Below, piece after piece: positions 4,876 through 45,175 of a DNA stretch of 64,000 nucleotides (position 1 is its first letter; every line of letters starts with the position of its first letter). The notes under the pieces were generated by a model, which saw only the letters and a program-made list of their open reading frames with translations, was not told the origin of the DNA and ran no database searches. The DNA comes from Bifidobacterium sp. ESL0690 (GTDB taxonomy: Bacteria; Actinomycetota; Actinomycetes; Actinomycetales; Bifidobacteriaceae). The DNA lies in assembly GCF_029392315.1 (NCBI RefSeq), contig NZ_CP113939.1:2418001-2482000 (forward strand), read 5' to 3'. The translations under genes and the position numbers were made by a program.

Positions 4876-6207
4876 CTAAAACCCTTGAGGTTTCATGAAC
4901 ATCGTCATGTACCACGGCAAATCAATGACGACATCATTCTTTTTTTCGTGTTCTACATTGCTATTGCAAAGCACAAAACCGGAATCAAGCTTCCATTCTT
5001 TGACGGCCAACAATTTATCGAGTGCGGCATGAACAGCAAAATCTTTTCCTGATTTCGCTTCTACCGGCACGATGGCGCTGCCGCGCTGCATCAGAAAATC
5101 GACTTCGCCTATTTTCGCCTTATCGAAATAGAAAAGATCAAAACCTTGAGCCGTTAGCTCCTGAGCTACGAAATTCTCAAGTGAACTGCCCCAGTTAACA
5201 CCTACATTCCCCTGCATGATTTCCAATGCCGTCGACCCCGCACTGGCCGCACTCAGTAAGCCGACATCACAGAGAAACACCTTCATCAGACTATGCTTTT
5301 CGTTGAGTTTCAGCGGATAAACGGGTTCTGAGACGTTCCGGCACGGAAGGACGACACCGGCATCGGCCAACCACATGAAATCACTGGCGTATCTTTCCAT
5401 TCGGGCAGTTTTCGACAAATCAGCCAAGACAAAACGCTTGTTCTTCTTATTGAGTTGCGAAGGCACGGCATCGAAAATCGACTTGATATGCATACGGCCG
5501 ACGCTGGTATCAGCATATTTAGCGATATCCTGACGATACAGCGACAAGATATCACGTTGCACATTGCCTACTGCATTCAAATCATTTGTCTCCACAAACG
5601 CGGAAACCGCTGCAGGCATGCCACCGACAACCATATAGTACGAAAACAGCGACATCAGACGCTGATGGAAAACCTCTACTACCGGTCTCAATTCTTTGAA
5701 TGCGCCGCCAACCTCGTCAATGACCGACTGCTGGATGCCATTCGCCCAATAGAATTCCTGCAATGTCAACGGGTACATCGTCAAATGTTCTTCGTAACCA
5801 ACCGGATATGAAGGAACTTCCTTATATGAGACACCCAGCAACGAGCCCGATTCGATGTAGTCGAAACGCCCGTCGTCGACGAGGAATTTGATTGCGGTTC
5901 GCGCGCGCGGACACTCCTGAATTTCGTCTAGGAAAATCAACGTCTTTCCCGGGACGAAAGGCTTGTTGGAGTAGATCGAAAGATTGGCGATAAGGGTATC
6001 CGCATTGAGATCTCCCTCGAAAACCGTTTTGGCGCTTGGAGTCTCGATGAAATTGATTTCCAGGAAGACGTCATAATTCGATTTGGCGAATTGACGGACA
6101 AGGTACGTCTTGCCTACCTGTCGCGCTCCGTCAATAAGCAAAGCACGATGCTGCGGGTTATTGTGCCACGCCTTTAAACGCTTTTCAGCTAATCGTTGCA
6201 ATTTCAA
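4876..6207 (-). CDS. AAA+ ATPase with DUF4143 (PD-(D/E)XK-like) domain
   Basis: About 443 residues. It has Walker A GARQVGKT at residues 27-34, Walker B LIFLDEIQ, and a C-terminal DUF4143 region with GEVDFLMQ...VPVEAKSG, a PD-(D/E)XK-nuclease-like signature. The family is widespread and functionally undefined. No ATG fits: the frame could begin at a TTG at 6243, 6207 or 6201. The 6207 or 6201 start is preferred because an iteron copy at 6224-6234 would otherwise lie inside the gene and a GGTGG/AAGG purine stretch precedes these codons. The gene is headed by four 33-bp-spaced iterons. A second member of the family is at 43982. Confidence 0.85.
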   Translation of the reverse strand: MKLQRLAEKRLKAWHNNPQHRALLIDGARQVGKTYLVRQFAKSNYDVFLEINFIETPSAKTVFEGDLNADTLIANLSIYSNKPFVPGKTLIFLDEIQECPRARTAIKFLVDDGRFDYIESGSLLGVSYKEVPSYPVGYEEHLTMYPLTLQEFYWANGIQQSVIDEVGGAFKELRPVVEVFHQRLMSLFSYYMVVGGMPAAVSAFVETNDLNAVGNVQRDILSLYRQDIAKYADTSVGRMHIKSIFDAVPSQLNKKNKRFVLADLSKTARMERYASDFMWLADAGVVLPCRNVSEPVYPLKLNEKHSLMKVFLCDVGLLSAASAGSTALEIMQGNVGVNWGSSLENFVAQELTAQGFDLFYFDKAKIGEVDFLMQRGSAIVPVEAKSGKDFAVHAALDKLLAVKEWKLDSGFVLCNSNVEHEKKNDVVIDLPWYMTMFMKPQGF

Positions 6208-6223
6208 CCTTACACCACCATTC

Positions 6224-6333
6224 TGCGACGTTTTACATATCAATTTAGCATAGTTTTGCGACGTTTTTCATAAATATCAGATTGCGTTTTGCGACGTTTT
6301 CTACCTCTCGCAAACAGCAGTTTGCGACGTTTT
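6224..6333. repeat. Iterons TGCGACGTTTT, 4 copies at exact 33-bp period
   Basis: The 11-mer TGCGACGTTTT occurs at 6224, 6257, 6290 and 6323, a strict 33-bp spacing with flanking bases mostly divergent. It lies directly upstream of the minus-strand AAA+/DUF4143 gene, in its promoter or 5' leader. An extra partial TTGCGTTTT precedes the third copy. This looks like an array for a DNA-binding protein. Confidence 0.92.
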
Positions 6334-6437
6334 GCCAGCTTACTCCCTTTCGGAATTTTATAAAACGAGACTAGCTGTAGTCTTATGACATCTCCGCTGT
6401 TGCACATAGCGGAGATCATATACCCAGACAGGGGGCA

Positions 6438-6789
6438 ATGATGCCGGGTATCGGCATTTACGCTTTGCCATTCGTCGATACCGTTCTTGGGCAACAAAAC
6501 CCGTGAGGAGAACGCGAGCAGCAGATATCGCAACAACAAAGCCCGCAACAAACCCTACAACTTAATTCACAACCAATCGCGAAAATCCAGACTTCCATAC
6601 AACTCCGTTCCATCGGCGTAGACGCGCAGAGTTTCACCACTCTGGCCTACGGAAACGGTGCCATGGCCGAAGTCTTCAGCTCCATCATCGCCACCATACA
6701 GCCAGCATCGCCACAGCGATACCTTACGAATTCTTGGCGTCATGGACCGGATTCGCGCCGATTGGGGCCTACGCTATCCGTTCGAGTAA
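6438..6789 (+). pseudogene. Decayed coding sequence of unknown identity
   Basis: An ATG ATG at 6438-6443 follows AGGGGG at good spacing and opens a frame (MPGIGIYALPFVDTVLG...) that meets TGA at 6504 and then stays open for over 100 codons (SIQLRSIGVDAQSFTTLAYG). From about 6690 a neighbouring frame gives a plausible protein end, ILGVMDRIRADWGLRYPFE, with TAA at 6787. One stop plus one frameshift suggests a dead gene. The tail vaguely recalls the end of Y-family polymerases, but this is not enough for a name. It lies next to the shortened GH31 gene. Confidence 0.35.
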
Positions 6790-6835
6790 TCGGCCTGCGT
6801 GCAGCAGCCAATTCACCAATATAATCAACAAATAA

Positions 6836-6881
6836 AATAAGGGCTAAATAACGACAAAGCTACTCGTATTTAGCCCTTATT
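6836..6881. terminator. Bidirectional hairpin terminator
   Basis: A 15-base perfect inverted repeat, AATAAGGGCTAAATA at 6836-6850 and its complement at 6867-6881, about 45 bases past the stop of the minus-strand GH31 gene. A-rich and T-rich flanks would allow action in both directions. Confidence 0.7.
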
Positions 6882-6925
6882 CGATTGCACGGTACCTAAG
6901 CGGATCAGACAACCGGCATCATCAG

Positions 6926-8974
6926 TCAGACGTTCAAAGGATCGGCACCAGGCCGCACCAACAAAGGCAACGTATGGTAATCATATTGTTGCGTATACCA
7001 ACGGTTTGGCTCATACGATTCTTTCGTGAGAAGGTTGACCCAAGGCTTCCCCTGCATCTCACCTTTGGCGTCAGGAACGTAGAAGCGAACCACACCATCC
7101 TCCGAAAAGACGGGAGCCACGAGCAAATCGTCACCCAGCATGTATTGGGTGTCGATATCCTCACAGTTCGGGTCGTCCGGGAATTCCAGAACCATCGCGC
7201 GCATGACCGGCGTACCAAACCGATGTGCCTCTTGGCTCATCTTCATCAAATAAGGGCGCAAACTATCTTTGAGCTTGCTGAACTCACGCGTGACTTCAAC
7301 CGCTTCGGAGCCGTATCGCCACGGAACCTTGATATCCCCGGCCCCGTGGTAACGGGAGTGCGATGAGAGCAGTCCGAACTGTGTCCAGCGCATATAAAGA
7401 TCAGGCGTCGGAGGAACAGGGCTTTCCTCGAAACCGGCAATGTCATGGCTCCAATAGCCGAAACCACCCATTCCCAACGACAGGCCACCTCGCAACGAAT
7501 CGGCCATGGCCAAATAGGTCGGATTCGGGTCACCACCCCAATGAACAGGGTATTTCTGGCTGCCCACGGTAGCCGAACGGGCAAAGACGACCGCATTCTC
7601 CTCGCCTTTGACCTCCGCAGTGACCTCATAGACGGCTTGGTTATACAGCAGTGTGTAGTAGTTATGCATCAGCTTTGGGTCGGAGCCGTCATAATAACTG
7701 ACGTTTTCGGTGGGAATTCGTTCGCCGAAATCGGTCTTGAAGCAATCGATACCCTGCTCCAGCAAATGCCGCAACTTGGATTGGTACCATTTTTTGGCAT
7801 CCGGATTGGTGAAATCGACTATAGCCATCCCCGGCTGCCACATATCCCACTGCCAAGGCGAACCGTCGGCATCCTTGATGAAATAACCGTTCTTCGCGCC
7901 CTCGTCGAATATCGACGATTTCTGAGCTATATAGGGGTTCAGCCATAAGCAAGCCTTGACACCACGTTTATGAAGTTCGGACAGCATTTTTTCGGGGTCA
8001 GGGAATTTCGTTTCATCCCACTCGAAACTGCACCATTCCATTTCCTTCATCCAATGGCTGTCGATATGCACGACGCTTAGCGGAATATCATGCTTTGCCA
8101 TGTCGTCGACCATCTTGATGATGGTGTTCTGATCAAAATACGGGCTCATCGAAGTGGAGAGCCACAGTCCGAGACTCCACTCAGGAACCACAGGCGGCTT
8201 GCCGGTCAAATCCGTATAGTTGTTGATGATGTCTTTGAGATCCGTACCACCAATAACCGAATACGACATCTCCTGTTCAGGTACGGAGAATTGAACTCGG
8301 GAAACCTTTTCCGAGCCGATTTCGAAACTCACTCTTCCAGGTGTGTTCACGAACAAGCCATATTTCTTGTTGCTCAGATAGAAAGGTACGTTTTTATACG
8401 CTTGCTCGCTTTCGGCGCCTCCATCGAGGTTCCAGCTCTCCACGGTTTGGCCGTTTTTCACAAAATTGGTAAACCTCTCCCCCAGACCGTAAATCTTCTC
8501 GTTGACACCCAACTCAAGCTGTTCGACGATATTGGTTTGGCCTTGAGGATCCAGCACCACGGATTTGCCTCGCCAGCCCGAACGCGCAATCTGCTTGCCG
8601 TCGAACGTATAAAGAAAATCAATCAGCTCGCCCTTGGCAATATGCAATGCCAGCCTGCCGGACGTAAAAGTCCATTCCTTCTCGTTCTCATCGATTTGGA
8701 CCTGCGGATGGGTTTCATTCAACTCGTACTTGGGGCACCGGCTCCGGTCTTTTTTATAGTTGATGAGTCTCGTCGTGATGATGTTCGGACGGGGGCTGGT
8801 GACCTCGATGGTCAAAAGTCCAATATTGTATGTGTCCCCTACGGTATGGATATGTCTTCCAAGCGGGCAATAAAGCGTCAGCTTGTCCTCGGTAATGTCC
8901 GCCGTATACACATTCGCGGCATACCTCACGTCGTAACCCTTTTTGACCAGCCAGGCACCGTTTAAAAACTTCAT
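6926..8974 (-). CDS. GH31 alpha-xylosidase-like glycoside hydrolase (YicI type), shortened C-terminus
   Basis: A 682-residue cytosolic enzyme strongly resembling E. coli YicI: nucleophile Asp415 in KTDFGERIP, acid/base Asp482 in HWGGD, plus WQWDMWQPGMAI and GFGYWSHDIAGF. YicI releases alpha-xylose from isoprimeverose-type oligosaccharides. The substrate-pocket segment reads VVHIDSHW instead of YicI's VFHFDCFW, so specificity may differ. YicI is 772 residues; here the protein stops soon after LLVRPG, losing roughly 90 residues of the distal beta-sandwich. AAAGG lies 9 bases before the ATG. It is first downstream of the ABC importer genes on the same strand, 152 bases from the binding protein, and probably degrades the imported sugar. 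Confidence 0.88.
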   Translation of the reverse strand: MKFLNGAWLVKKGYDVRYAANVYTADITEDKLTLYCPLGRHIHTVGDTYNIGLLTIEVTSPRPNIITTRLINYKKDRSRCPKYELNETHPQVQIDENEKEWTFTSGRLALHIAKGELIDFLYTFDGKQIARSGWRGKSVVLDPQGQTNIVEQLELGVNEKIYGLGERFTNFVKNGQTVESWNLDGGAESEQAYKNVPFYLSNKKYGLFVNTPGRVSFEIGSEKVSRVQFSVPEQEMSYSVIGGTDLKDIINNYTDLTGKPPVVPEWSLGLWLSTSMSPYFDQNTIIKMVDDMAKHDIPLSVVHIDSHWMKEMEWCSFEWDETKFPDPEKMLSELHKRGVKACLWLNPYIAQKSSIFDEGAKNGYFIKDADGSPWQWDMWQPGMAIVDFTNPDAKKWYQSKLRHLLEQGIDCFKTDFGERIPTENVSYYDGSDPKLMHNYYTLLYNQAVYEVTAEVKGEENAVVFARSATVGSQKYPVHWGGDPNPTYLAMADSLRGGLSLGMGGFGYWSHDIAGFEESPVPPTPDLYMRWTQFGLLSSHSRYHGAGDIKVPWRYGSEAVEVTREFSKLKDSLRPYLMKMSQEAHRFGTPVMRAMVLEFPDDPNCEDIDTQYMLGDDLLVAPVFSEDGVVRFYVPDAKGEMQGKPWVNLLTKESYEPNRWYTQQYDYHTLPLLVRPGADPLNV

Positions 8975-9126
8975 GAATTTAACCTTTACAAAAATCGTAA
9001 TTTTTTACAGTACATATCGCCATACGAATTCCGATAGCCCGCAAATTCACGCAACAAACGAAAGCCCAGGCTCTTCGTGCAGACGCAAAAAGAGCCCAAG
9101 CATTTCAAAATCGGAAGACGTTATGG

Positions 9127-10371
9127 TTACTTGATACCGTTCTTCTGGAAATCTGCGTCGAGCGCATTGAGGTAGGCGTTGACATCGCCCTTCTCAAGGA
9201 ACTCCTGGCTCAACCCCTGCATATCGCTCGCACCGGTAAACATAACATCCGGGAAGATGCAGGTCTTGCCCTTATCGATGTAATCGGCCTTCATCGCCTT
9301 CAGCACGTCGGTATTCGCGGGGACATCAGAGCGAACGGAAAGCAGGTTCTGGTCATCCGTATATTCCTTCTGAATCTTTTTGGAGAGCAGGAATGTAAGG
9401 AACTTCTGAGCCGCCTTCTGGTGCTTGGAAGCAGAAGAAACACCAATCAATGCATCGGTACCGGAAATCAGAGGAGTCGTGTTGGGCTGATCACGGGTAG
9501 GCAGCACGAAGAATCCAAGATGAATGTTGGGATTGGCCTCAAGAATTGCCGGAATGGCCCAGATTCCCTGAATATACATGGCGGACTTGCCATTGGCGAA
9601 TTGCGAGTTGCCAGTATCATAATCCGTACCTGCAGGATCTTCCTGAGCGAAGGTCTTCAATTTGAGCATACGATCAGCAGAAAGCTTCCAACCGGGATTC
9701 TTGGCGAAGCTTGCCTTGCCTTTTTGCAGATTGTCCCAGAAATCCTTGCCCTGTTCCGGAGCAGCCACTGCCATAGCCATCTTATTGGCGGGATCGGCAT
9801 CCTTCCAAGTGAAGATGAAGGGCTGCTGACCTGCATCCTTGACTTTTTGGGCCGTCTGGACGAACTCATCCCATGTGGTGGGAGCCGTCAGACCGAGCTT
9901 GGTAAAGATATCCTTGTTGTACAGCACGCCTTCACCAATGATGGACCACGGCACAACATAGTTCTTCTTGGTCTGGCCGATCTTATGCAGGTAATCATAA
10001 TAGGACTTGTTCGCCACGGACTTGTAGGCCGTGGTTCCCGTCTGCTCGGTAAGAATGTTTGCCTTGACCAGATCGTTGTAATAGGTACCATCAGCAGTGA
10101 TGACATCGGGGACGTCGTTCTTGGCCATACGGGACTTCAACACGGTGATGGGGTTGGAAGCCGTTTGCTGTTCAACAGTGATATTCGGATTCTGAGCTTC
10201 GAATTCCTTAATCAGCTTGTTGGTGATTTTCACCGATTCAGGCTTCTTCTGGAAGAACTGGATGTGTTCCTTTCCATCTGCGGAATTGCCGCCGCAGCCA
10301 GCCATCATAGGAATTGCCATGGCAATGGAAGCCACGAGCGCAACGCACTTAATCGCCTTTTTCCTTAGCAT
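9127..10371 (-). CDS. ABC sugar importer, extracellular solute-binding lipoprotein (family 1)
   Basis: A 414-residue lipoprotein: signal MLRKKAIKCVALVASIAM followed by lipobox MAGC and a body typical of family 1 oligosaccharide-binding proteins (FIFTWKDADPANKMAMAVA, SAMYIQGIWAIPAI). It captures an oligosaccharide outside the cell for the two permeases encoded upstream at 10493-12194. AAAGGAG precedes the ATG at 10371. It is separated from the permeases by 121 bases carrying a LacI-type operator, so it may have its own promoter for higher expression. The ligand is inferred only from the neighbouring GH31 and GH2 genes. Confidence 0.92.
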   Translation of the reverse strand: MLRKKAIKCVALVASIAMAIPMMAGCGGNSADGKEHIQFFQKKPESVKITNKLIKEFEAQNPNITVEQQTASNPITVLKSRMAKNDVPDVITADGTYYNDLVKANILTEQTGTTAYKSVANKSYYDYLHKIGQTKKNYVVPWSIIGEGVLYNKDIFTKLGLTAPTTWDEFVQTAQKVKDAGQQPFIFTWKDADPANKMAMAVAAPEQGKDFWDNLQKGKASFAKNPGWKLSADRMLKLKTFAQEDPAGTDYDTGNSQFANGKSAMYIQGIWAIPAILEANPNIHLGFFVLPTRDQPNTTPLISGTDALIGVSSASKHQKAAQKFLTFLLSKKIQKEYTDDQNLLSVRSDVPANTDVLKAMKADYIDKGKTCIFPDVMFTGASDMQGLSQEFLEKGDVNAYLNALDADFQKNGIK

Positions 10372-10452
10372 TTCACTTCTCCTTTGGAGTTTGTTTCTAA
10401 CGGCAGCGAATGGCCCAATCGCTTCTCCGCTGCCGCTCATCAATTATTATAA

Positions 10453-10466
10453 TGCAATCGTTTGCA
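10453..10466. promoter_or_regulatory. LacI-family operator upstream of the binding-protein gene
   Basis: TGCAATCGTTTGCA, a near-perfect LacI/GalR palindrome with central CG, 82 bases upstream of the minus-strand lipoprotein start. Its likely reader is the LacI protein at 14855. Confidence 0.75.
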
Positions 10467-10492
10467 AAATCAAATTAAAGAGAATTAAAGAG

Positions 10493-11335
10493 TCACTCTT
10501 TTACAGATCCTGCAGCAACACCGTTGATAATCTGCTTTTGCGCGAACAGATACACGATAAGCATCGGAATCATAGCGAGCGTGTATGAAGCAAATGACAG
10601 ATTATAGTTGGTATTAAAGGCACTTTGGAACATGTACTGAGTGAGAGGAATAGTGTACTGATCCTGCTTCGATATCATCACCAAAGGCAGCATGAAATCA
10701 TTCCATACCCACAATGTTTGCAAAATGCCAACGGTTGCGTTAGCCGGTCCCAGCAACGGGAAAATGACCTTCCAGAACGTTTGCCAGGTATTGGCGCCAT
10801 CAAGCATCGCGGCTTCATCAAGACTTCTGGGAATCGTGTCCATATAGCCCACGTAGAACATGGTGTTGAACGGCAGGTTGTAAATGACGTAGATTGGTAT
10901 CAACCCGTAAAGATTGTCCAATCCCAGCATGCTCATCTCTTTGACCAGCGGCAGCATCAGAATCGAAAATGGGATGAACATCGCTGAAACGATATAGAAA
11001 TAGGCGATCTTGAAGCCTTTACGGTTCATGTTGCGGGCTATGGCGTATCCGATCATGGCATTCGTCAGCACACCGATGACCACCGAAACGATCGTCAGAA
11101 TCAGGCTGTTGCCCAAAGCCCTCCAGAAATTGGTCTCGACGATGGCTTCCGAGAAATTGCTCCATCGCCATTGCGTCGGCAACGCCCATAGGCTTTTCGC
11201 GCTCTGCTGGCGATCCTTCAAAGCGGTGGATAGCGTCAGATACATCGGAATCAGCACCGTCAGGGAGCAGAATATAAGGAATATGGTCAACAGCCAGTTG
11301 CTGCGCTTCCTGATAAGTTTGCTTGAGCTATCCAT
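10493..11335 (-). CDS. ABC sugar importer permease, MalG type
   Basis: A 280-residue inner-membrane protein with six predicted membrane spans and the cytoplasmic EAA loop (SLDEAAMLDGANTWQTFWKVIFPLLGP) that contacts the ATPase. The start at 11335 has a strong AAGGAGGAG site. It follows the MalF-type gene with only one base between stop and start, so the two are co-transcribed and probably translationally linked. No ATPase gene accompanies them; such importers commonly share a MsmK-like ATPase encoded elsewhere. Confidence 0.93.
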   Translation of the reverse strand: MDSSSKLIRKRSNWLLTIFLIFCSLTVLIPMYLTLSTALKDRQQSAKSLWALPTQWRWSNFSEAIVETNFWRALGNSLILTIVSVVIGVLTNAMIGYAIARNMNRKGFKIAYFYIVSAMFIPFSILMLPLVKEMSMLGLDNLYGLIPIYVIYNLPFNTMFYVGYMDTIPRSLDEAAMLDGANTWQTFWKVIFPLLGPANATVGILQTLWVWNDFMLPLVMISKQDQYTIPLTQYMFQSAFNTNYNLSFASYTLAMIPMLIVYLFAQKQIINGVAAGSVKE

Positions 11336-11336
11336 A

Positions 11337-12194
11337 TTACTTCTCCTCCTTGGAGCCAAACACACCCATTTGAATCAACGAAATCGCCAAAATCAGCAGG
11401 AAATAAACGACTGCATTGGCCGATTGATAGGCGAATTGACCGCCCTGGAACCCGTTGCGATAAATAAGGAACGAAATCGATTGCGTCGCGGTTCCAGGCC
11501 CGCCATTGGTAAGAGCCACAATCAAATCAAAGACCTGAAGCTGGGTTTTCAGCTGGAGAATCATATTCACCATGACAAACGGAGTCACCAGAGGCAGCGT
11601 AATCTTCCAGAATGTCTGGACCGTGTTCGCGCCATCCACTTTCGCCGCTTCATAGATATCGGTTGAAATGGACTCGATACCTGTCATATAAATGACCGTC
11701 GTCACCGCGCAAGCCTGCCAGACAGCGACAATCACGATAGCGACCCACGCCCATTGGCTGTTGCCCAAGATGCTTTTGGAGAGAAAATCGTTATGTAATC
11801 CTTTACCGACTGAGGTAACGACCTGCGAAAAGATAAAGTTGAAAACATAGCCGATGACGATGGTGGCGAGCACCGCCGGCAGGAAGAACACGCCTCTTAG
11901 GAAACTGCGGAACCGAATGTTCTGCGTCAGGCAGACCGCAAGCAAAAGGCTGATGACGTTGGTCAGAATCGAGGCCAACAACGCAAAACCGATAGTGAAT
12001 ATATAACTATGAATTACCGATGGGTCGGTAAACAGTTGGGCGTAATTCTTGAACCCTATGAAATTCCATCCCCCGTATCCCCTATAGTCGGTCAGACTGT
12101 AGAACATACCCATCAATGCGGGGACGGTCATAAAAACAAAAAGAAATATTACACCTGGCACGACCATCAAGGCATAACCAGTACGACGTCTCAT
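11337..12194 (-). CDS. ABC sugar importer permease, MalF type
   Basis: A 285-residue membrane protein with the EAA loop DIYEAAKVDGANTVQTFWKITLPLV. It is the first gene of the importer operon and diverges from the GH2 gene at 12583. The N-terminus starts within the first membrane span (RRRTGYALMVVPGVIFLFVF). GGAG precedes the ATG. It forms the translocation channel with the MalG-type partner encoded immediately downstream. Confidence 0.93.
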   Translation of the reverse strand: MRRRTGYALMVVPGVIFLFVFMTVPALMGMFYSLTDYRGYGGWNFIGFKNYAQLFTDPSVIHSYIFTIGFALLASILTNVISLLLAVCLTQNIRFRSFLRGVFFLPAVLATIVIGYVFNFIFSQVVTSVGKGLHNDFLSKSILGNSQWAWVAIVIVAVWQACAVTTVIYMTGIESISTDIYEAAKVDGANTVQTFWKITLPLVTPFVMVNMILQLKTQLQVFDLIVALTNGGPGTATQSISFLIYRNGFQGGQFAYQSANAVVYFLLILAISLIQMGVFGSKEEK

Positions 12195-12322
12195 ATCTCC
12201 ACTCCTTCATGGATTGTGGCTGTTTCAGACCAGCCACACAGTCAAATTCTCCGAGAGACAAAATGGACACGCTCCACATTCCGACGACAAATCCTGAATG
12301 CGTCAGATTGAGGAATATCCTA

Positions 12323-12337
12323 TTGCAAACGCTTACA
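12323..12337. promoter_or_regulatory. LacI-family operator, importer side of the divergent promoter region
   Basis: TTGCAAACGCTTACA, an imperfect LacI/GalR-type palindrome about 130 bases upstream of the MalF-type gene. The 388-base divergent region 12195-12582 otherwise is AT-rich and holds no gene. Confidence 0.65.
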
Positions 12338-12450
12338 TTTTATCACGGAAATAATCCACTCATATTTAATTCTCCTTAACTACAATGTTATAAAGAAAGC
12401 AATAAAACATTGTTATTTCAAAGCTTCGAAAATAACGTAACCATACTATA

Positions 12451-20408: not shown

Positions 20409-20432
20409 ACCTGCTGATTAAGTTACGCAGGG

Positions 20433-20724
20433 TGCACTTTCCTCACGCTAGCGTGTAAAAAGTGCACTTTGCGCAGCTTTACATGCACGTTTTACACGCT
20501 AACGTTTCAAACATGCACTTTGCTTCAGTCAACTCGCACTTTTGCCACGTCACCGTCAAGAAAGTGCACTTTGCCAAACCTGATCTGCATCTTTTTGACG
20601 CCACCGTATAAAACATGCACTTTGAGCAAGCCAACTTGCACGTTTCCCATGCCACCGTCAAAAACCTGCACTTTACACACCTTGAGTGCACTTTTCTCAC
20701 GCTGGCGTCAAAAAAGTGCACTTT
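20433..20724. repeat. Palindromic array, TGCACTTT family, 6 units at about 51-bp period
   Basis: Six tandem units. In each, a TGCACTTT-like box is followed exactly 30 bases later by a second box preceded by AAAG, and the interior carries a second dyad of the CACGC/GCGTG type, giving a ~36-bp palindrome. First boxes start at 20433, 20484, 20535, 20586, 20637 and 20687; second boxes at 20463, 20514, 20565, 20616, 20667 and 20717. Units are separated by about 15 variable bases. It fills the convergent gap between the nitroreductase gene and the 20757 gene. Confidence 0.92.
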
Positions 20725-20756
20725 GCTGAATCCAATTTGCTACGGATAAAGGGCGA

Positions 20757-34567: not shown

Positions 34568-34579
34568 GTAGACGCGAGA

Positions 34580-37636: not shown

Positions 37637-37840
37637 TCAGGCCTTGGCGACCGGACGAAGATCAGCGTGATGACGCTTCAGATACTCGCCAACCGCCTCG
37701 CGAATGAGTGCAGAAGGACGAACCTCTTCGTCCGCTGCGCCCGAAAGAACCCAATCAGCCAGCTCCGACGTCGCACGAACGCACCAAGTGCGCTCCTGAA
37801 GCTGACGAACTCCATGCTGTGCCTTAACTGCCTTAGCCAT
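37637..37840 (-). CDS. Small ribbon-helix-helix-like protein
   Basis: A 67-residue basic protein. The central part VRPSALIREAVGEYLKRHH resembles the second half of CopG/RHH antitoxins and DNA-binding proteins. An excellent AGGAGG-type site (CGGAGGTAGGAA) precedes the ATG and a clear terminator follows, so it is an expressed single gene. No toxin partner is adjacent. A perfect 20-bp palindrome lies about 110 bases upstream and might be its own operator. Confidence 0.75.
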   Translation of the reverse strand: MAKAVKAQHGVRQLQERTWCVRATSELADWVLSGAADEEVRPSALIREAVGEYLKRHHADLRPVAKA

Positions 37841-37952
37841 TTCCTACCTCCGTTTGTTCGTGAAAATCTGCGTTACAGATAGTTTTATTGTATCACTTTC
37901 CCGGCAAACGGGAACAGTTTTAGGCCCAATCGAGGGCCAGCTAGCGTTGCAC

Positions 37953-37972
37953 ATATTACATTAATGTAATAT
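37953..37972. promoter_or_regulatory. Perfect 20-bp palindrome, operator candidate
   Basis: ATATTACATTAATGTAATAT is fully self-complementary. It sits in the 395-base gap between the RHH-like gene start and the end of the amino-acid permease gene, about 113 bases upstream of the former. No other feature was recognised in that gap. Confidence 0.6.
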
Positions 37973-38235
37973 ACTCGGATTCCAATACAATTTTAGGTAA
38001 TACGGCGTTTCATTTTTCCGATTCAAACCCCACGTTTCACAACGATTTTTACAATTAGGTTCCAATAATAACTATCGGAAAAAGTATTTTTTGCGATACT
38101 TTCGCGAACCGAAAAATCATTAAAAACCTTTTAAAAATTTTTCTCGCTCACAGCGAAACCCGCCTGAGAGAGGGTGCGTCGAGGCAATCAAACGTTCCAA
38201 TCGAAGGTTTTTTAACGGCAACGGTTATGGTTCTT

Positions 38236-39774
38236 TCAAACCAAAAGCTCGGCTTCTTTCCCGCGGTAACGAATCAGGCTATAGCCACCGAACAGCACCA
38301 GCCAGACCAGCCCGGCAATGGCCGAGCCTCGCGTATCCGAGGAAAGGAAAAGCGTCACATAAATGAACACGAAGAAGATTATCGTCAGCGTGTTCGTGAA
38401 CTTGTAGGCCGGCATCACGAAACCGTCAGCCATGAAATCGGCGGACTGGCGATAGCGCTGGTGGGCGATCATCGTCAGGACGTAGACGAAGATGATCACG
38501 GCGCTGGAGGCCGAGGAGAAGAGCACGAAGACGTTGGAGACCTTCGGAATCGCGTTGATGATCGGCGAGAGGAGAATGAAGCAGGCGGAGACCACGATGG
38601 CACGCGCCGGTACCTTGCGCTTGGAGACGACACCGAGTTTGCGCAGCGTGGGCGAAGTGGAGACCTCGGCCAGCTGGAAGAGATGACGGCCTGCGGAATA
38701 GAGCAAGGAGTTGAGCGCCGAGGACGCGGCGGTGATCACGACGAAGAAGACCAGCGCGGAAGCCCAGTTGAGACCCGCGTACTGGAAGACCATGATGAAC
38801 GGGGAAGCGAAGGAACCGTCCTTGTTCGGCTTGAACGTGCGCCACGGCACGATGAGCATGATGGCGACAAGCGCGCCTACGTAGAAGATCAGGATTCGCA
38901 TGATGATCTCGTTAATGGCTTTCGGCAACACCTTGCGCGGGTTCTTGGTCTCGGAGACGGTGACGCCGACGAACTCGATCATCTCGTAGGCGAAGAAGAC
39001 CATCTGGAAGCTCATCAGAAGCGCCAGCCAGCCGTTCGGGGCCAGCGAAAGGCCCTTAAAGATGTTGTCGAAACCGGCGTGACCAGCGGGGCTGACGTGG
39101 TCGAGACCGTGAATATGGACGGCGGGATAGTGATATCCGATAATAACCATCACGATTGCCGTAACGATCAGGCCGACGATCAGGGTGATCTTGATCATCG
39201 AGAACCAGAATTCGGTTTCACCGAACGCTTTGACGGCGATGAGGTTGATAATCGCGAGCACCGCAAGGAAACAGACCTCGATGAGCGGCTGCCATTTTTG
39301 CAGGTTGAAGCCGAACGTGTCGAAGAAGGTGACGAAATATGTGCCAACCGCAGTGAGTTCCGAGAGGCCCATAAGGATAAGGACGATCCAGTAGGTCCAG
39401 CCCGCGAAATGGCCCCAGCCGGAGCCGAGGTAGCGGCCGATGAAGTTGATGAACGTGTGCTGGTTCGGGTCGTAGTACATCAGTTCGCCGATGGCGCGCA
39501 TCAGAAGGAACATCATCACGCCAACGAGGATATAGACCAGGATGATGCTGGGGCCCGTCAGCGCAATCGACTTGCCGGAGCCGAGGAAAAGGCCGGTGCC
39601 GATGGTGCCGCCGATGGCGATGAACTGGACATGCCGGTTGCTCAGGCCGCGCTCGAGCTTATTGGTCGTTTCGCCGGCGCTGCCACCGCGGATGTTTGCC
39701 GAGGTATCGGTTGCAGCTTTGGCGTTGGTTTCGGCATTGGTTCTGGCATTCCTGCTTTCATCCATTTGTGTCAT
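38236..39774 (-). CDS. Amino-acid permease, APC superfamily (AAT type)
   Basis: A 512-residue, 12-span secondary transporter. After ~40 Ala/Thr/Asn-rich residues comes the AAT-family opening GLSNRHVQFIAIGGTIGTGLFLGSG, followed by FGETEFWFSMIKI and EMIEFVGVTVSETKNP, all typical of proton-coupled amino-acid uptake. Specificity cannot be read from the sequence. GGGAAG precedes the ATG. It diverges from a second permease gene (40491), with a small membrane-protein frame in between. Confidence 0.92.
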   Translation of the reverse strand: MTQMDESRNARTNAETNAKAATDTSANIRGGSAGETTNKLERGLSNRHVQFIAIGGTIGTGLFLGSGKSIALTGPSIILVYILVGVMMFLLMRAIGELMYYDPNQHTFINFIGRYLGSGWGHFAGWTYWIVLILMGLSELTAVGTYFVTFFDTFGFNLQKWQPLIEVCFLAVLAIINLIAVKAFGETEFWFSMIKITLIVGLIVTAIVMVIIGYHYPAVHIHGLDHVSPAGHAGFDNIFKGLSLAPNGWLALLMSFQMVFFAYEMIEFVGVTVSETKNPRKVLPKAINEIIMRILIFYVGALVAIMLIVPWRTFKPNKDGSFASPFIMVFQYAGLNWASALVFFVVITAASSALNSLLYSAGRHLFQLAEVSTSPTLRKLGVVSKRKVPARAIVVSACFILLSPIINAIPKVSNVFVLFSSASSAVIIFVYVLTMIAHQRYRQSADFMADGFVMPAYKFTNTLTIIFFVFIYVTLFLSSDTRGSAIAGLVWLVLFGGYSLIRYRGKEAELLV

Positions 39775-40154
39775 AATCTTCCCTTCGCTTCTTGCTGCTT
39801 ATGCGCGCAATAGTGAATAGAGTACGCCGCGAGAGATGACATCAAGGTTTCGAAGCCCGGTTTTGCGGGGTTTATCACCGGCAAAATGACGATATATGAT
39901 AAAAAATGACAAAATTAATTGGACGCTTTCACATAAGCAACACGCAATTTCAGGGGTTATCGCTCCCTTTTAGCCGAAATGCAAAAGTTTCGGGCCGCGT
40001 CTCATAACGTGGACTATCTCGACGCATAAATGAGAGTTTGTATCACAAAAAGCAAAACTGGCTTGAAACAGGTGGGACGCAGGAACACATTAATACGTAA
40101 CGCAAAACCAGAACGACGCCACGAATCACCGGAAAGCTTCACCGCATCCTGAAC
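39775..40154. other. Intergenic stretch upstream of the AAT permease
   Basis: 380 bases with AT-rich segments near 39890-39930 that probably contain the minus-strand promoter. No repeats, hairpins or reading frames convinced me. Confidence 0.35.
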
Positions 40155-40487
40155 CTATCCGCACAAATATCCGTTTGCACCCTTACACTTTCGAAATGTT
40201 GGGGGAATTTTCAAGCGAGCCGCAAATTCCGACCGCCAGTCACGGCCAAAACGGCCCATGAGTTTTATTTCCATCGCAAACATCGCGCCGAAGGACGCGA
40301 TATGTAATACACGAGCAGGGAATCCCGTGAAAGAGGAGCGCCACATGACCAGCGAGTCGGGCACAGCAAGAAGTAACGCTACGAGCAGTAGAGGCGGCAA
40401 CGGTTTGAGTATAAGGTATATGCCCAACGCAAGCCACCACCACGCCCCTTTGACGATGACGACATTCCTACTCGCGATGGCGGCCAA
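40155..40487 (-). CDS. Possible small membrane protein or remnant
   Basis: A frame of about 110 codons from a TTG, divergent from and almost abutting the lysP-like start at 40491. It encodes a long hydrophobic segment (GAWWWLALGIYLILKPLPPL, LLVALLLAVP) and a basic end. The composition looks like a real membrane protein, but there is no ATG/GTG, no clear ribosome site, and the frame continues open upstream into the antisense of lysP. It may be a degraded gene. Low confidence. Confidence 0.3.
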   Translation of the reverse strand: MAAIASRNVVIVKGAWWWLALGIYLILKPLPPLLLVALLLAVPDSLVMWRSSFTGFPARVLHIASFGAMFAMEIKLMGRFGRDWRSEFAARLKIPPTFRKCKGANGYLCG

Positions 40488-40490
40488 AGC

Positions 40491-42029
40491 ATGAGCAGCA
40501 ACAACGCAAACGCCGCTTCCGGCAACAATACGCAAGCTGGCAAACCACAAAATCAAGGCGGCAACCGAGTTGTCCGCAAGCTCAAAACCCGCCATATCTC
40601 GATGATTGCGCTCGGCGGGTGCATCGGCACCGGCCTCTTTATGACCTCCGGCGGCACCATCGCACAGGCCGGACCTGGCGGCGGACTCGTGGCCTACGCG
40701 GCCATGGGCATCATGGTCTACTTCCTGATGACCAGCCTCGGCGAGCTCGCCACGAACATGCCGGTCTCCGGCTCGTTCTCGGTGTATAGCTCGAAATACG
40801 TCGACCCCGCGCTGGGGTTTGCGATGGGCTGGGACTACTGGCTCAACTGGGCGATTTCCGGCGCCACCGACATCTCGACCGCCGCGCTTTTGATGCAATA
40901 TTGGTTCCCGAAATCACCGGGTTGGGTATGGAGCCTGACCATGCTCGTGATCATCTTCTGTCTCAACGCCTTCGTGGTCTCCGCGTTCGGCGAGACCGAA
41001 TTCTGGTTGGCGCTGATCAAAGTGGTCACCATCATCATCTTCATCGTGGTGGGTCTGATGATGATCTGCGGCATCATGTTCCAACCGGCCGTCGGATTCA
41101 AGAACTTCACCTATAAAGGAGGGCCGTTCATCGGCGGCCTGCCCGCCATCATGGGCGTCTTCCTCATCGCCGGCTACTCGTTCCAAGGCACGGAAGTCGT
41201 AGGCGTTACTGCCGGGGAATCCGAGAACCCAAGCCAGGCGGTGCCGAAGGCCATCAACAACGTCTTCTGGCGTATCGTGCTGTTCTATCTGCTTTCGATT
41301 TTCGTGATTGCGGCAATCATTCCGTATACCGACAAGAACCTCCTCGGCGCTTCCGACACCAACATCGCGATGTCGCCGTTCACCATCGTCTTCGAAAAGG
41401 CCGGCTTGGCGGGTGCGGCAAGCATCATGAACGCCGTGGTGCTGACCTCGATTTTGTCAGCCGTCAACACGGGAGCCTACGCCTCAAGCCGCATGCTCTA
41501 CGGCATGGCGAAAGACGGTTACGCGCCGAAATTCCTCGGCACCACCACCAAGCGCGGGGTGCCGCTGGCGGCATTGATTACCACGCTCTGCATCGAGGCG
41601 CTGGCGTTCTCGTCGAGCATTTTCGGACCAAAGTTCTATATGTGGCTCGTTACCGCAACCGGCCTGACCGGCTTCATCTCGTGGATGGGCATCGCGCTAA
41701 GCCACTTTCGCTTCCGCCGCGCATTCAAGCTGCAGGGCCACAAGCTCTCCGAGTTGAAGTACCACGCGAAACTCTTCCCGCTCGGCCCGATTCTCGCCAT
41801 CGTAATCTGCCTCGTCGTGATCTGCGGCCAGGATCTCCCCGCCTTCGCTTCCGGCAATGTGGGCGAGCTGCTGATGACCTATTTCAGCGTCATTCTCGTC
41901 GCCATCCTCTACTTCGGCTTCAAGTTCACGCACCACACCCACATCGTCAAGCTCAAGGATATGGACGTCTCCTCCGCCCGCCCCGAAGTGCTGAAAGAGA
42001 AGCGCGAAAAGAGTGCGGCAAACTCCTAG
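40491..42029 (+). CDS. Amino-acid permease, APC superfamily (LysP-like)
   Basis: A 512-residue, 12-span permease closest in pattern to lysine-specific LysP: LKTRHISMIALGGCIGTGLFMTSGG, SAFGETEFWLALIKVVTIIIF, and SFQGTEVVGVTAGESENPSQ, with YASSRMLYGMAKDGYAPKFL near span 8. Uptake of lysine or another basic amino acid is likely but not proven. The N-terminal 25 residues are Asn/Gln-rich. Only a weak purine stretch precedes the ATG. A strong terminator follows. Confidence 0.88.
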   Translation: MSSNNANAASGNNTQAGKPQNQGGNRVVRKLKTRHISMIALGGCIGTGLFMTSGGTIAQAGPGGGLVAYAAMGIMVYFLMTSLGELATNMPVSGSFSVYSSKYVDPALGFAMGWDYWLNWAISGATDISTAALLMQYWFPKSPGWVWSLTMLVIIFCLNAFVVSAFGETEFWLALIKVVTIIIFIVVGLMMICGIMFQPAVGFKNFTYKGGPFIGGLPAIMGVFLIAGYSFQGTEVVGVTAGESENPSQAVPKAINNVFWRIVLFYLLSIFVIAAIIPYTDKNLLGASDTNIAMSPFTIVFEKAGLAGAASIMNAVVLTSILSAVNTGAYASSRMLYGMAKDGYAPKFLGTTTKRGVPLAALITTLCIEALAFSSSIFGPKFYMWLVTATGLTGFISWMGIALSHFRFRRAFKLQGHKLSELKYHAKLFPLGPILAIVICLVVICGQDLPAFASGNVGELLMTYFSVILVAILYFGFKFTHHTHIVKLKDMDVSSARPEVLKEKREKSAANS

Positions 42030-42038
42030 AAACAACAA

Positions 42039-42080
42039 AAATCTGCTCCCAAAGATATTCAAACCTTTGGGAGCAGATTT
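42039..42080. terminator. Terminator between lysP-like and DUF5067 genes
   Basis: Perfect 15-base stem AATCTGCTCCCAAAG with its complement, loop of 10, then TTC. It lies in the convergent gap and could serve both genes. Confidence 0.88.
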
Positions 42081-42117
42081 TCAATCACGGTTTTCTATTA
42101 CAAAAGCCGTTGTTCCA

Positions 42118-43575
42118 TCACTTAATGTTGATGGTTTGCGTAACGTATGTCTCCTCTTTGAAATTAATCCCGGACTCGAGCACCACATTCACAGGCGTTG
42201 AGCCGTCGACGAGTTTGTAGGCAACAGTGACTTTCGAACTGGCGTTGGGCGCTACATCAGCGTCGTAGCTATCGAAGCTGTATCCCTCAGTGTTGTCCGG
42301 AAGATAGTCCTTTGCGAGATTGACGCCGTTCTGGGAAACCCTATCGTCAACAGCCTTCAGGAAAGAAGTCTTCTCCTTGCCCGTATTCTTATATTGATAG
42401 GTAATGATTAGCGTCCAGTTCCCCTCATGATCCTTCGGGCCCCGCTTGGCGGAGGCGATTTTCACTTCGGTATCCGTGAAACTTCCGCTGCCTTTCAGCA
42501 CCTTCTTTTCCGGGTTCTTGTAGTCTTCCTGCTCTTTCTTCTGCTGATCGTCGCCACGCGGAGTGGCCGAGATGGCGGAAGAATCAGAGAAACTCGTCGT
42601 TCCATTGCCGTTGAATGCGTCCATGATGGTATTGAAAGAGGCGATGAACACAATAACCGAAAGGACGGCGGCAATGATGCCGGTAGCAAGACCGCCGATT
42701 GACAGACCCTTGCCAGGAAGCCTTCCGGCGTTGATCTTGCGCATGGACATGAAGCCGGTCACGATGGCCGCGATGCCACAGGCGATGCCGACGACGGGAA
42801 TCCAGAAGAGAACGATGGCGACGATGCCCAGGATCAGCGAGACGATGGCCATACGCGGACGCTGCGGCGCCTGTCCGAACGGCTGCTGCGGCGACATGCC
42901 TGCCGGCGGCTGAGACGACGTGCCCATTGGAGGTTGGGATGACGTGCCCATCGGGGGCGCAGAGACAGGAGTGGTCGGCGGCTGAGACGACACCTCCACT
43001 GGCTGCTGATACATGGGCCCCATCGGCTGCTGCGCCGGCATGCCGGCTGTTTGCTGCGGTGCCGAATTTACCGGCTGCTGCCACGAGCCCTGCAAATGCT
43101 GAGGGGCCGTGCCCGACTGCTGCCACGACGGAGTCTCAGATTGCTGCGATTGTCCGGGATTGAACGGCTGCTGCGACGCCGAACCGTTCGACTGTTCTGA
43201 AGCCGAATCTACCTGCTGCCACGCCGAACCCGACGATTGCTGCGACGCCTCGGAATCCGCCGACTGCGGTACTTGCGTCGGGTTTGCGTTCTGCTGTTGT
43301 GATTCTGGCTCCGACGAGCGCTGCAGTGCAGAATCCGACTGCTGAAGTACCGAATTTACTGGCTGCTGCCACGGCATGCGCTGCGCTTGCTGCGGGGCCG
43401 CGAAATTCGCCGGCTGCTGCGCTTGCGTCGGGTTTGCATTCTGCTGCGTCGGGTTGGCCTGCTGCTGCGGCGCGGAATCCGCCGACTGCTGCCACGGATA
43501 TACCGGCTGGCCGTTGTATGGCGTATTGGGTTGCGGCGACGTGCCGCCACCATATGGGTTATTATCTTCCTGCAT
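42118..43575 (-). CDS. DUF4190/DUF5067 membrane protein with Gln/Pro-rich N-terminus
   Basis: A 485-residue protein. Residues 1-230 are a low-complexity tract rich in QQP/SQQ repeats ending in MGTSSQPPMGTSSQPP duplications. A DUF4190 two-span region follows (MAIVSLILGIVAIVLFWIPV, then GGLATGIIAAVLSVIVFIAS). The exported C-terminal domain matches DUF5067 (NWTLIITYQYKNTGKEKTSF, DADVAPNASSKVTVAYKL). Such proteins are common at the surface of bifidobacteria and have no known function. AAGGA lies 10 bases before the ATG at 43575. Confidence 0.8.
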   Translation of the reverse strand: MQEDNNPYGGGTSPQPNTPYNGQPVYPWQQSADSAPQQQANPTQQNANPTQAQQPANFAAPQQAQRMPWQQPVNSVLQQSDSALQRSSEPESQQQNANPTQVPQSADSEASQQSSGSAWQQVDSASEQSNGSASQQPFNPGQSQQSETPSWQQSGTAPQHLQGSWQQPVNSAPQQTAGMPAQQPMGPMYQQPVEVSSQPPTTPVSAPPMGTSSQPPMGTSSQPPAGMSPQQPFGQAPQRPRMAIVSLILGIVAIVLFWIPVVGIACGIAAIVTGFMSMRKINAGRLPGKGLSIGGLATGIIAAVLSVIVFIASFNTIMDAFNGNGTTSFSDSSAISATPRGDDQQKKEQEDYKNPEKKVLKGSGSFTDTEVKIASAKRGPKDHEGNWTLIITYQYKNTGKEKTSFLKAVDDRVSQNGVNLAKDYLPDNTEGYSFDSYDADVAPNASSKVTVAYKLVDGSTPVNVVLESGINFKEETYVTQTINIK

Positions 43576-43789
43576 TGTTTTTATATCCTTCCAACAATCT
43601 TCCCGGCAGCGGGCCATCCACTCCCTTTATTGATAATAGACAATCTTAGTCACAATATAACTTCTTTCGAGCCCCCAGCAGTATAAACGACACTGTTTCT
43701 GCGAATCTGATCGCAACCCGCCGCCGGCGCAAACTCGCGCACCAACCTCATCCATTACGCCCCCAAAGCACCTGCGAGAATCCAAAATC

Positions 43790-43967
43790 CTGTCAGCAGG
43801 CTGACAATTTCCGAACTTTCCCACAAAAGTTGTCAACAGACTGACAGAACTTTCGATTTTCTATCAATCTTGTCAATAGACTGACAGGTTTATACCTAAA
43901 CTAAAAGTTGTGTCAATAGACTGACAGAACTTTTAATTTCATGCTAAAGTTGTCAACAGACTGACAG
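43790..43967. repeat. Iterons TTGTCAAYAGACTGACAG, 5 copies at exact 40-bp period
   Basis: 18-bp boxes start at 43790, 43830, 43870, 43910 and 43950. Each contains the inverted repeat TGTCA-N6-TGACA. The first copy is diverged. Downstream flanks alternate between GAACTTT and GGTTT. The last copy ends 14 bases before the ATG of the AAA+/DUF4143 gene. The rest of the gap 43576-43981 has no gene. Confidence 0.95.
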
Positions 43968-43981
43968 GTTTGGAGCTGAAA

Positions 43982-45175
43982 ATGATTGATCGTCCTTATT
44001 ATTTGGATTGGCTGGAACGCTGGCGCGATAAGGAACCCATCAAAGTCGTGACGGGAATGCGGCGCAGCGGCAAGTCGAAGATACTCGAAATCTTCCGCGG
44101 CCGCCTCGCCAAAGAAGGCGTCAATCCCAAAAACATCATCGCCATCAACTTCGAAAGTCTCGATGAGAGCTACCCAACTGAAGCCAAGCCGCTTTACGAC
44201 TACATTGTCAAGCGTCTGCAACACGGTCAGAACTATATCTTTTTGGATGAAATCCAGCACGTCGAGCACTTCGAGAAAGCCGTGGACGCACTGTATATCC
44301 GCAACGATACCGACATCTACATCACCGGATCGAACGCGAAGCTGCTTTCCAGCGAACTTGCGACACTGCTGACCGGCCGTTACGTCGAACTCAACATGTT
44401 CCCACTTTCGTTCGCTGAGTACCGAACGACTCGGCCACAATCCGAAACCACCGACCAATCGTTCGAACGTTACCTCACCTACGGCGGCCTGCCATACACC
44501 ACCTATCTCGACGACGAACAAAGCATTGCCGATTACCTTAGCGGCGTGTTCAACACCATTCTCGTTAAAGACATCGCGGTGCGACACCCGAAAATCGACA
44601 TGCCTGCTTTCAACGAAGTAGCCGCATTCCTGGCCGACAACGTTGGCAATATCACCTCAGTCAAAGGCATCGCGGACACGATGAAACAGGAGCATAAGGG
44701 CATCTCCCCCAACACCGTCCGCGAATATATAGCAGCGCTTTGCGAAAATTATCTACTCTTCAGGGCCGAGCGATACGACATCAAGGGCAAAGCCTATATG
44801 AAAACACTTGAGAAATACTACCTGGGCGACCCCGGGTTCAGGTTCTGGTTCCTCGGCAAATCCGGCGGCGACACCTGCCATCGCATCGAAAACGTGGTTT
44901 ACCTTGAACTTTTGCGGCGCTTTCGCACCGTTTCCATCGGAAAAATCGGCACCAAGGAAATTGATTTTTGCGCCACCGATGCCGACGGGGTTCATTATTT
45001 CCAGGTTTCGCAGACCGTGTTGGACAGCGCGACTCTCAGCCGCGAACTCGCACCGCTGAAAAACATCGACGACAACCATCCCAAAACTCTGCTGACTCTG
45101 GACCGCATCGGCAACGGCGACCACGACGGCATCAAGCAGGAGAATCTGCTCGACTGGCTGCTCGACAATCAATAA
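43982..45175 (+). CDS. AAA+ ATPase with DUF4143 (PD-(D/E)XK-like) domain
   Basis: A 397-residue protein: Walker A GMRRSGKS, Walker B YIFLDEIQHVEHFE, sensor region ITGSNAKLLSSELATLLTGR, and a C-terminal DUF4143 part with TKEIDFCATDADGVHYFQVSQ. It belongs to the same broad family as the 4876 gene but is clearly divergent from it. The ATG at 43982 has GGAG six bases ahead; a TTG at 43970 is less likely. Five 40-bp-spaced iterons end 14 bases upstream. Function is undefined; the arrangement suggests DNA binding or autoregulation at the iterons. Confidence 0.88.
   Translation: MIDRPYYLDWLERWRDKEPIKVVTGMRRSGKSKILEIFRGRLAKEGVNPKNIIAINFESLDESYPTEAKPLYDYIVKRLQHGQNYIFLDEIQHVEHFEKAVDALYIRNDTDIYITGSNAKLLSSELATLLTGRYVELNMFPLSFAEYRTTRPQSETTDQSFERYLTYGGLPYTTYLDDEQSIADYLSGVFNTILVKDIAVRHPKIDMPAFNEVAAFLADNVGNITSVKGIADTMKQEHKGISPNTVREYIAALCENYLLFRAERYDIKGKAYMKTLEKYYLGDPGFRFWFLGKSGGDTCHRIENVVYLELLRRFRTVSIGKIGTKEIDFCATDADGVHYFQVSQTVLDSATLSRELAPLKNIDDNHPKTLLTLDRIGNGDHDGIKQENLLDWLLDNQ

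Follow-up and report, generated by a model that had tools for sequence, protein, structure and literature searches.

Direct-repeat arrays with clade-specific spacing upstream of DUF4143 ATPase genes in Bifidobacterium are candidate self-operators

Genes for DUF4143 ATPases in Bifidobacterium are mostly preceded by arrays of direct repeats, the spacing of these arrays follows the clade of the encoded protein, arrays of this kind recur in other phyla, and the presence of a DUF4143 gene can often be predicted from the repeats alone. DUF4143 proteins form a very common bacterial family that has no settled function and frequently appears among candidate virus defences. The arrays came to notice at two genes, A and B, of a 64,000-nucleotide stretch of the Bifidobacterium sp. 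ESL0690 chromosome (NZ_CP113939.1, positions 2,418,001 to 2,482,000; hereafter the window), for which a sequence-only reading had proposed a recurrent module of an ATPase with its own gene-specific repeats, recalling either the iterons of plasmid partition or replication or a self-recognising selfish or defence module. On the comparisons reported here, the module is real, is specific to the DUF4143 family among the sequences compared, and is old enough to recur in several phyla. The interpretation that we favour, with a probability of about 0.65, is that the arrays are self-operators bound by the product of the gene that they precede and are probably autoregulatory.

Arrays at the DUF4143 genes of one genome

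Array A consists of four copies of TTTGCGACGTTTT at spacings of exactly 33, 33 and 33 base pairs (bp), and array B of five copies at exactly 40 bp, of which four are TGTCAAYAGACTGACAG and the first has three mismatches (Table 1). Periodic repeats ending about 15 bases before the start codon had been claimed for both genes, and both arrays indeed end 14 bases from it. TGTCAAYAGACTGACAG is an inverted repeat, TGTCA-N6-TGACA. Within the window, motif A with up to two mismatches has 8 matches versus 2.4 expected, the four array copies alone matching at zero or one mismatch, and motif B has 5 matches versus 0.18 expected. The claim that the repeats are gene-specific was examined in the 2.64-Mb genome, where TGTCARYAGACTGACA with up to one mismatch occurs in array B only (5 of 5 matches; at two mismatches there are three more elsewhere, and 2 for a control pattern) and motif A occurs at up to one mismatch four times in its own array and three times elsewhere. 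Single motif A sites are not distinctive, because the genome holds 28 matches at up to two mismatches compared to 34 for a control pattern. A regulon was rejected on these counts, motif B being confined to its own array at up to one mismatch and motif A elsewhere not exceeding background. Two of the three additional motif A copies (G000:C1:220712 and 1995417) are separated by approximately 2.4 and 3.6 kb from the corresponding domains of two other DUF4143 genes of this genome (L001 and L008), which may be chance.

Table 1. Positions in the window of genes A and B, their domains and the copies of their arrays (a dot marks an unassigned strand).
Feature	Position	Strand	Remarks
Gene A, AAA_14 and DUF4143 ATPase (clade II, 33-bp class)	4876..6207	minus	TTG start; 443 residues; PADLOC PDC-S01 3.8e-170
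Gene A, AAA_14 domain	5752..6150	minus	domain search
Gene A, DUF4143 domain with ExK-type motif (EVDF...VEAKSG)	5047..5532	minus	domain search
Array A, copy nearest start	6222..6234	.	TCTGCGACGTTTT
Array A, copy	6255..6267	.	
Array A, copy	6288..6300	.	
Array A, copy most distant from start	6321..6333	.	
Gene B, AAA_14 and DUF4143 ATPase (clade III, 40-bp class)	43982..45175	plus	ATG start; PADLOC PDC-S01 2.3e-148
Gene B, AAA_14 domain	44033..44422	plus	domain search
Gene B, DUF4143 domain	44567..45007	plus	ExK lysine replaced (QVS)
Array B, copy 1	43791..43807	.	diverged; TGTCAGCAGGCTGACAA
Array B, copy 2	43831..43847	.	TGTCA-N6-TGACA inverted repeat
Array B, copy 3	43871..43887	.	
Array B, copy 4	43911..43927	.	
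Array B, copy 5	43951..43967	.	14 bases ahead of start codon

Proteins A and B have only 26% sequence identity over 112 residues and are thus divergent members of the family. The length of protein A in Table 1 agrees with database record P0121; the query used for its PADLOC match, its structure-relative search, its identity to B and its plasmid homologues started at 6204 and lacked the first codon. No empty site for gene A was found, the nearest relative looked at (L455) carrying both gene A and its array. Compared with window positions 4194-6741, this relative has approximately 8.6 kb without a window match on the downstream side of gene A.

A search with PF13635 found nine DUF4143 genes dispersed on the 2.64-Mb chromosome, and all nine have a direct-repeat array just upstream: at 23 bp (L001, with 11 copies of one 12-mer), 33 bp (L002, L003 and L004, which is gene A), 34 bp (L005), 23/46 bp (L006), 32 bp (L007) and 40 bp (L008 and L009, which is gene B). 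The nine cores all differ in sequence, and the sole pair flagged as similar is that of L002 and L007 (10 matching positions). None of the nine 14-mer cores has a match with up to one mismatch outside the arrays in 464 kb of the genome's own sequence, which holds only two of the nine arrays, the other seven lying outside it.

Gene B and its close relatives differ in the number and sequence of their repeats. Among 14 relatives with 63-100% identity (L166-L179, the first being gene B), nine have at least three copies at 39-40 bp, two more have two copies at 40 bp, and three (72-73% identity) have neither; the orthologues carry 5, 4 or 3 copies. By eye, the palindromic core shifts from TGTCA-N6-TGACA to GTCA-N6-TGAC with other flanks (L171, L172) and to TCCA-N6-TGGAC (L179). 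The upstream neighbour gene (window 40491-42029) is kept in 8/8 gene B relatives at 83% identity or more, and in 0/5 more distant relatives within the stretch taken. The ExK pattern was found in 0/13 proteins of the 40-bp class by pattern search, and its replacement by Q-V-S in gene B and its clade III relatives suggests a catalytically dead subfamily.

Survey of the genus and controls

The survey was based on 396 PF13635 matches in 61 Bifidobacterium genomes, from which 118 loci were examined: 38 from the own-genome and genus lists and 80 further places of the genus list. Some loci at contig ends or with short frames were skipped, and weak-scoring members (clade III) are under-represented because loci were taken mostly in order of score. 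Four loci without a Walker-type frame were dropped (L027, L028, L036, L124), leaving 114 usable loci. An array was called if at least three copies of a 12-mer with up to two mismatches recurred at an even period of 18-60 bp, with a tolerance of one bp either way within an array. By this definition arrays were present at 102 of the 114 loci and in none of 114 dinucleotide shuffles (one per locus), so that the module is recurrent in the genus as the sequence-only reading had supposed. The distance from the array core end to the chosen start has a median of 37 over 115 loci. The most copies in any one region examined, 14 at 23 bp, form a clade I array upstream of L457.

As controls, the same detector was applied to upstream regions of ATG or GTG frames of at least 200 amino acids in the window and 400 kb of the same genome, and to another ATPase family (PF01637) in the same genomes. 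Of 245 upstream regions, five were positive; two of these belong to gene B and its divergent neighbour, leaving 3/243, and shuffles of the regions gave 1/245. The 30 best-scoring PF01637 loci gave three positives with periods of 26, 36 and 51 bp. The sequence-only reading had named arrays occurring equally before unrelated genes as an outcome that would speak against a specific linkage, and this outcome was not obtained. In a wider search of 112 genomes of the genus, 94 had DUF4143 matches, one of them at least 29.

Spacing follows the protein clade. On a FastTree phylogeny of 166 proteins, flagged by the program for long branches, three changes suffice for the labels 23, 33 and 40 bp over 115 labelled loci, and with absence of an array as a fourth label 25 changes are required compared to a shuffle mean of 83; the expectation that array type predicts protein subgroup was therefore borne out. 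Consecutive spacings are exactly 23 bp in 195/230 cases in the 23-bp class (clade I), 32 or 33 bp in 97/103 in the 33-bp class (clade II) and exactly 40 bp in 25/34 in the 40-bp class (clade III), a constancy inside arrays that is partly built in by the tolerance of the detector, which does not set the class value itself. Adjacent copies are 87-89% identical in their cores (partly by construction) and 41-56% identical in the remainder of the unit; core and pitch have been kept while the rest has not, and so the pitch has outlived the sequence of the spacers. By a crude pattern, the ExK-type nuclease motif is present in 47/60 proteins of the 23-bp class and 36/42 of the 33-bp class.

Recurrence outside the genus and prediction of the gene from DNA

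Homologues on plasmids found by tblastn amounted to 60 records for gene A and 392 for a clade I protein, and 24 of 116 listed hits were picked for taxonomic spread as a plasmid and phage sample. At 6 of the 12 clade II plasmid loci, drawn from four phyla, at least three copies recur at 32-33 bp (Collinsella, Segatella hominis, Prevotella, Agathobacter, Vibrio and Glaesserella; for the Agathobacter and Glaesserella arrays, 1/20 shuffles also gave three copies), and GAAAAGTGT is the core in four of these six. A seventh clade II locus was called at 42 bp, and five had no call, three of them with two copies by eye. The clade I plasmid and phage loci have arrays in 2/12 cases (Ruminococcus at 23 bp, Rhizobium at 22 bp), and 6/12 have an inverted repeat near the start that was matched by at most 3/60 shuffles.

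In the reverse test, three occurrences of GAAAAGTGT at 32-34 bp were sought over one genome for each of 84,980 species, yielding at least 118 stretches and at least 119 arrays. Among the matches listed, 85 of 119 arrays are followed within 1.8 kb by a DUF4143-type frame. Among those with at least 400 bp of downstream DNA, 81/112 were positive, all on the same strand, 80 by the profile of the 33-bp class and one by that of the 40-bp class; of the seven with shorter DNA, four were positive (33-bp class).

Protein residues that track the motif

Coevolution of protein and motif was examined in the 23-bp class with 58 loci and 1053 pairs, using motif similarity after removal of overall identity. 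Of the 24-residue windows, 201-224 of the L001 frame predicts this similarity best (r 0.281; permutation 95% maximum 0.167) and by eye is a helix-turn-helix (HTH)-like stretch. The best single residue is 315 (r 0.419; permutation 99% maximum 0.249), in the [FY]RDxX..E[VI]D loop, ahead of the E[VI]D acid of DUF4143. At least two copies of TATG[CT][AT]AAT, a motif defined after looking, accompany N315 at 15/17 loci and other residues at 0/41; the link of S315 to TTATGG is looser (9/14 versus 1/44). The out-of-sample loci were 14 newly fetched ones, of which L464 was dropped, and the 12 plasmid or phage loci. The strict pattern was found at 7/10 new genus loci with N versus 0/3 others; a relaxed pattern, chosen after seeing some of the regions outside the genus, was found there at 4/5 versus 0/7, and over all new loci one or other pattern was present at 12/15 with N versus 0/10 others. 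This residue-motif coevolution is a lead and falls short of a map.

A model of self-operators

Since spacing follows the protein subfamily, each protein is suggested to read its own repeats. Each DUF4143 ATPase would then be a sequence-specific DNA-binding protein whose main genomic site is the array at the 5' end of its own gene. Subunits may bind head to tail, or in the 40-bp class as dimers, with a pitch of 23, 33 or 40 bp fixed by the oligomerisation of the subfamily, with the sequence read by the HTH-like stretch and the loop of the DUF4143 nuclease fold. Autorepression by the gene's own product is likely from the placement of the repeats, and would probably be the first consequence of binding because the array sits directly before the gene, making the unit a self-contained and self-limiting cassette. 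The divergence of specificity would prevent mutual silencing among the many paralogues in one cell. A plausible purpose would be to keep PDC-S01, as a candidate defence effector, at a low level and ready to act. The self-recognising half of the module first proposed is thus the best remaining reading, and the defence half is taken over from annotation, that is, from the PDC-S01 match and the literature.

Several results weigh against this model. Arrays are missing from part of the family: 12/114 usable genus loci lack three evenly spaced copies, and of 27 loci from other actinobacterial genomes, four of which were dropped (L053, L054, L055, L058), 4/23 have arrays and 19/23 do not. Some of the latter carry two copies 23 or 33 bp apart, a weak sign given that shuffles often yield two copies. 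Among 30 gene B relatives (gene B counted), 11 have at least three even copies and 19 do not, a low rate due to a B-like paralogue group (L180-L194) mostly without arrays; the possibility, raised at the outset, that most DUF4143 genes lack arrays is thus refuted in the genus sample and not among the relatives of gene B. A scan for sigma70-like promoters scored arrays at 8.77 and shuffles at 8.58, so that overlap with a promoter is unsupported. The coevolution signal has four phylogenetically independent pairs, nearly all in the same direction (p 0.125); once the 23-bp class is dereplicated at 70% (26 loci), its best window moves to 171-194 and is weaker; and outside the genus the strict pattern was found at 0/5 loci with N versus 0/7 others. 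Mapping of the recogniser in the 33-bp class was rejected, as the signal there is spread over many columns that lie above the permutation limit.

In the reverse test, 31 of the 112 arrays among the matches listed have no DUF4143 frame downstream, which also counts against the model. By eye, four of these misses (L251, L265, L291, L297) keep the usual codons of the gene start, which then break off; L316 has a divergent clade II frame upstream, and L282 and L321 have a clade I-type frame upstream. The remaining misses have no clear DUF4143 frame within the 2.5 kb inspected. Arrays at 33 bp without a downstream frame include L231, L253, L296 (Collinsella aerofaciens) and L321, some with leftover codons. 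PF01637-like ATPase frames were seen by eye near L224, L271, L273 and L280.

Present before most of the genus members examined, a private, clade-pitched array offers experimenters a defined candidate ligand for each protein and a regulatory readout, and approximately a hundred natural protein-site pairs (115 labelled loci) can be used to decode specificity. The signature in DNA alone finds members of the DUF4143 family or their remains, and the arrays offer a direct route to studying the function of the family.

Alternative explanations

A wider form of the model, which we regard as doubtful though conceivable, is that DUF4143/PDC-S01 proteins are a self-addressed class of AAA+ proteins that would form a fixed-pitch filament on their own array, read partly by the nuclease-fold domain, with the same address recognising repeats of invaders, for which 33-bp pairs in phages would be targets or decoys. 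Related to this is an unlikely alternative in which the array serves as a bait or standard: the protein would assemble on it, find invading DNA with matching repeats by the same specificity, and attack it with the nuclease domain. The PDC-S01 match and the ExK-type motif in the 23- and 33-bp classes agree with such a function, as does the over-representation of GAAAAGTGT pairs at 32-34 bp in viral contigs, where the gene is nearly always missing from the vicinity of the pair. These pairs were found in 52 viral records forming 35 clusters, 28 of them at exactly 33 bp, compared to 6 and 10 unclustered records for other spacings and 7 for the reversed word, and a DUF4143 gene lies near the pair in 1/52 records. 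PF13635 was found in 0/50 whole viral records searched, which are often fragments and from which L380, which has PF13635, and L388 were left out. GCAGAAAAGTGT occurs in 18/26 records searched, exactly twice at 33 bp in 16 and once in two. Against an attack on matching repeats, viral contigs hold no excess of clade I-type pairs (17 versus 24 for the control) and B-type pairs number 0, so that generality of the viral pairs was rejected; the 40-bp class lacks the catalytic lysine (13/13 by pattern); and phages would be expected to lose such sites. Among the top 14 groups listed, no neighbouring frame recurs at more than four of the viral pair loci, relatives of the same cluster aside. The GCAGAAAAGTGT pairs exactly 33 bp apart (L339, L344, L345, L350, L351, L355, L359, L373 and the L342 group) stand in phage contexts that are unrelated to one another, some coding and some intergenic, and that lack DUF4143. 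In L339 and L350 one copy of the pair is altered, and by eye the pair in L339 and L355 is followed by a cytosine methyltransferase-like frame.

Another widespread regulator, rather than the DUF4143 protein, may bind the arrays and control the DUF4143 genes, and binding by the gene's own product is indeed deduced rather than observed. This alternative is rather improbable, as nine motifs in one genome would require many regulators, the spacing follows the DUF4143 clade and recurs with it in other phyla, and the motif tracks residues of the DUF4143 protein itself.

Repeated sites at two to three helical turns, often beside their own gene, are known from plasmid iterons with Rep, archaeal Orc1/Cdc6 with ORB repeats, and NrdR box pairs; these systems are initiators or a nucleotide-sensing repressor, and their domain content and context differ from those of the DUF4143 units. 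The partition or replication function first suggested would make the array an iteron or centromere, the ATPase a Rep- or Par-like protein, and the chromosomal units relics of plasmids. Direct repeats of approximately two to four helical turns (23, 33 and 40 bp) beside an AAA+ gene, and the plasmid records counted above, fit this proposal, which nevertheless must be considered very improbable: A and B match only AAA_14, DUF4143 and, weakly, AAA, with no Rep or Par domain; nine different units are dispersed on one chromosome; the upstream neighbour of gene B is conserved in all eight close species; and half of the clade I loci sampled outside the genus carry an inverted repeat close to the start. 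Functionless tandem duplication in slippage-prone leader DNA, to which the variable copy number among gene B orthologues might be attributed, is scarcely credible given that pitch and core persist while the rest of the unit has diverged, that the pitch is clade-specific, and that arrays are absent or rare in the shuffles, the upstream regions and the PF01637 loci. Clustered regularly interspaced short palindromic repeats were rejected because a pitch of 23 bp leaves no room for spacers, the copies are imperfect and their place before the start is fixed.

Relation to known systems

The PADLOC models of PDC-S01 cover residues 2-439 of protein A (of the 442 given) and 1-395 of the 397 of protein B. 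In the available text of PMC12988326, PDC-S01 is a single-gene phage defence candidate in which an ATPase is joined to a PD-(D/E)-X-K superfamily protein; it is reported to rank fourth in abundance among the defences of all prokaryotes, but like the other candidates (PDCs) there it lacks validation, and many of these are not associated with defence islands. The four neighbours checked at the two window loci (GH31, DUF5067, a PAS/HTH protein and one without a family) are not defence-like. Upstream arrays are not mentioned in the available portions of PMC12988326 and PMC13356809, and no description of them was found in the literature searched, the coverage of which is thin for subscription papers and preprints.

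Similar to the units of the model are RptR-type autorepressors, which, according to the portion of PMC12255303 available, have direct repeats in their own promoter upstream of the start, bound by their own product, which represses its own promoter and a defence island. RptR, a repressor of 9 kDa, has three repeats of 9 bp (PMC12255303), whereas DUF4143 proteins are AAA+ proteins of approximately 400-450 amino acids with a nuclease-like domain and with paralogue-specific repeats at 23, 33 or 40 bp. IniR, as excerpted in PMC5760070, resembles the DUF4143 proteins of the model in combining an SSO1545-like AAA+ domain with binding of promoter DNA. It differs in that the operon it activates is not its own and in that, besides a MalT-like domain, it has a distinct DNA-binding domain at its C terminus; neither a private array nor a nuclease fold is mentioned in that excerpt. 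In the part available of a study of T. thermophilus, TT_P0211 (AAA 14, DUF4143) is 6.6-fold up in cells with a plasmid, only when Argonaute is present. When solved-structure relatives were sought with the single sequences, A matched only Cas4, weakly (E 0.068), and B had no match; profile searches gave matches only at E 0.6-0.65.

Other repeats

A further dispersed repeat of approximately 25.5/51 bp, in which AAAGTGCACTTT alternates with ACGCTAGCGT-like words, lies between unrelated genes at window positions 20431-20740 and in two other stretches of this genome (L070, 6140-6360; L066, 15533-15740), and the upstream region of L525, in a relative, has one word similar to this type at 51 bp. Three ATCAACAATCAG-like words at approximately 32 bp lie past the 3' end of the PAS/HTH gene (window 46041-46115). 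A 72-bp tandem repeat of 2.2 copies with 90% matches occupies window positions 1760-1917.

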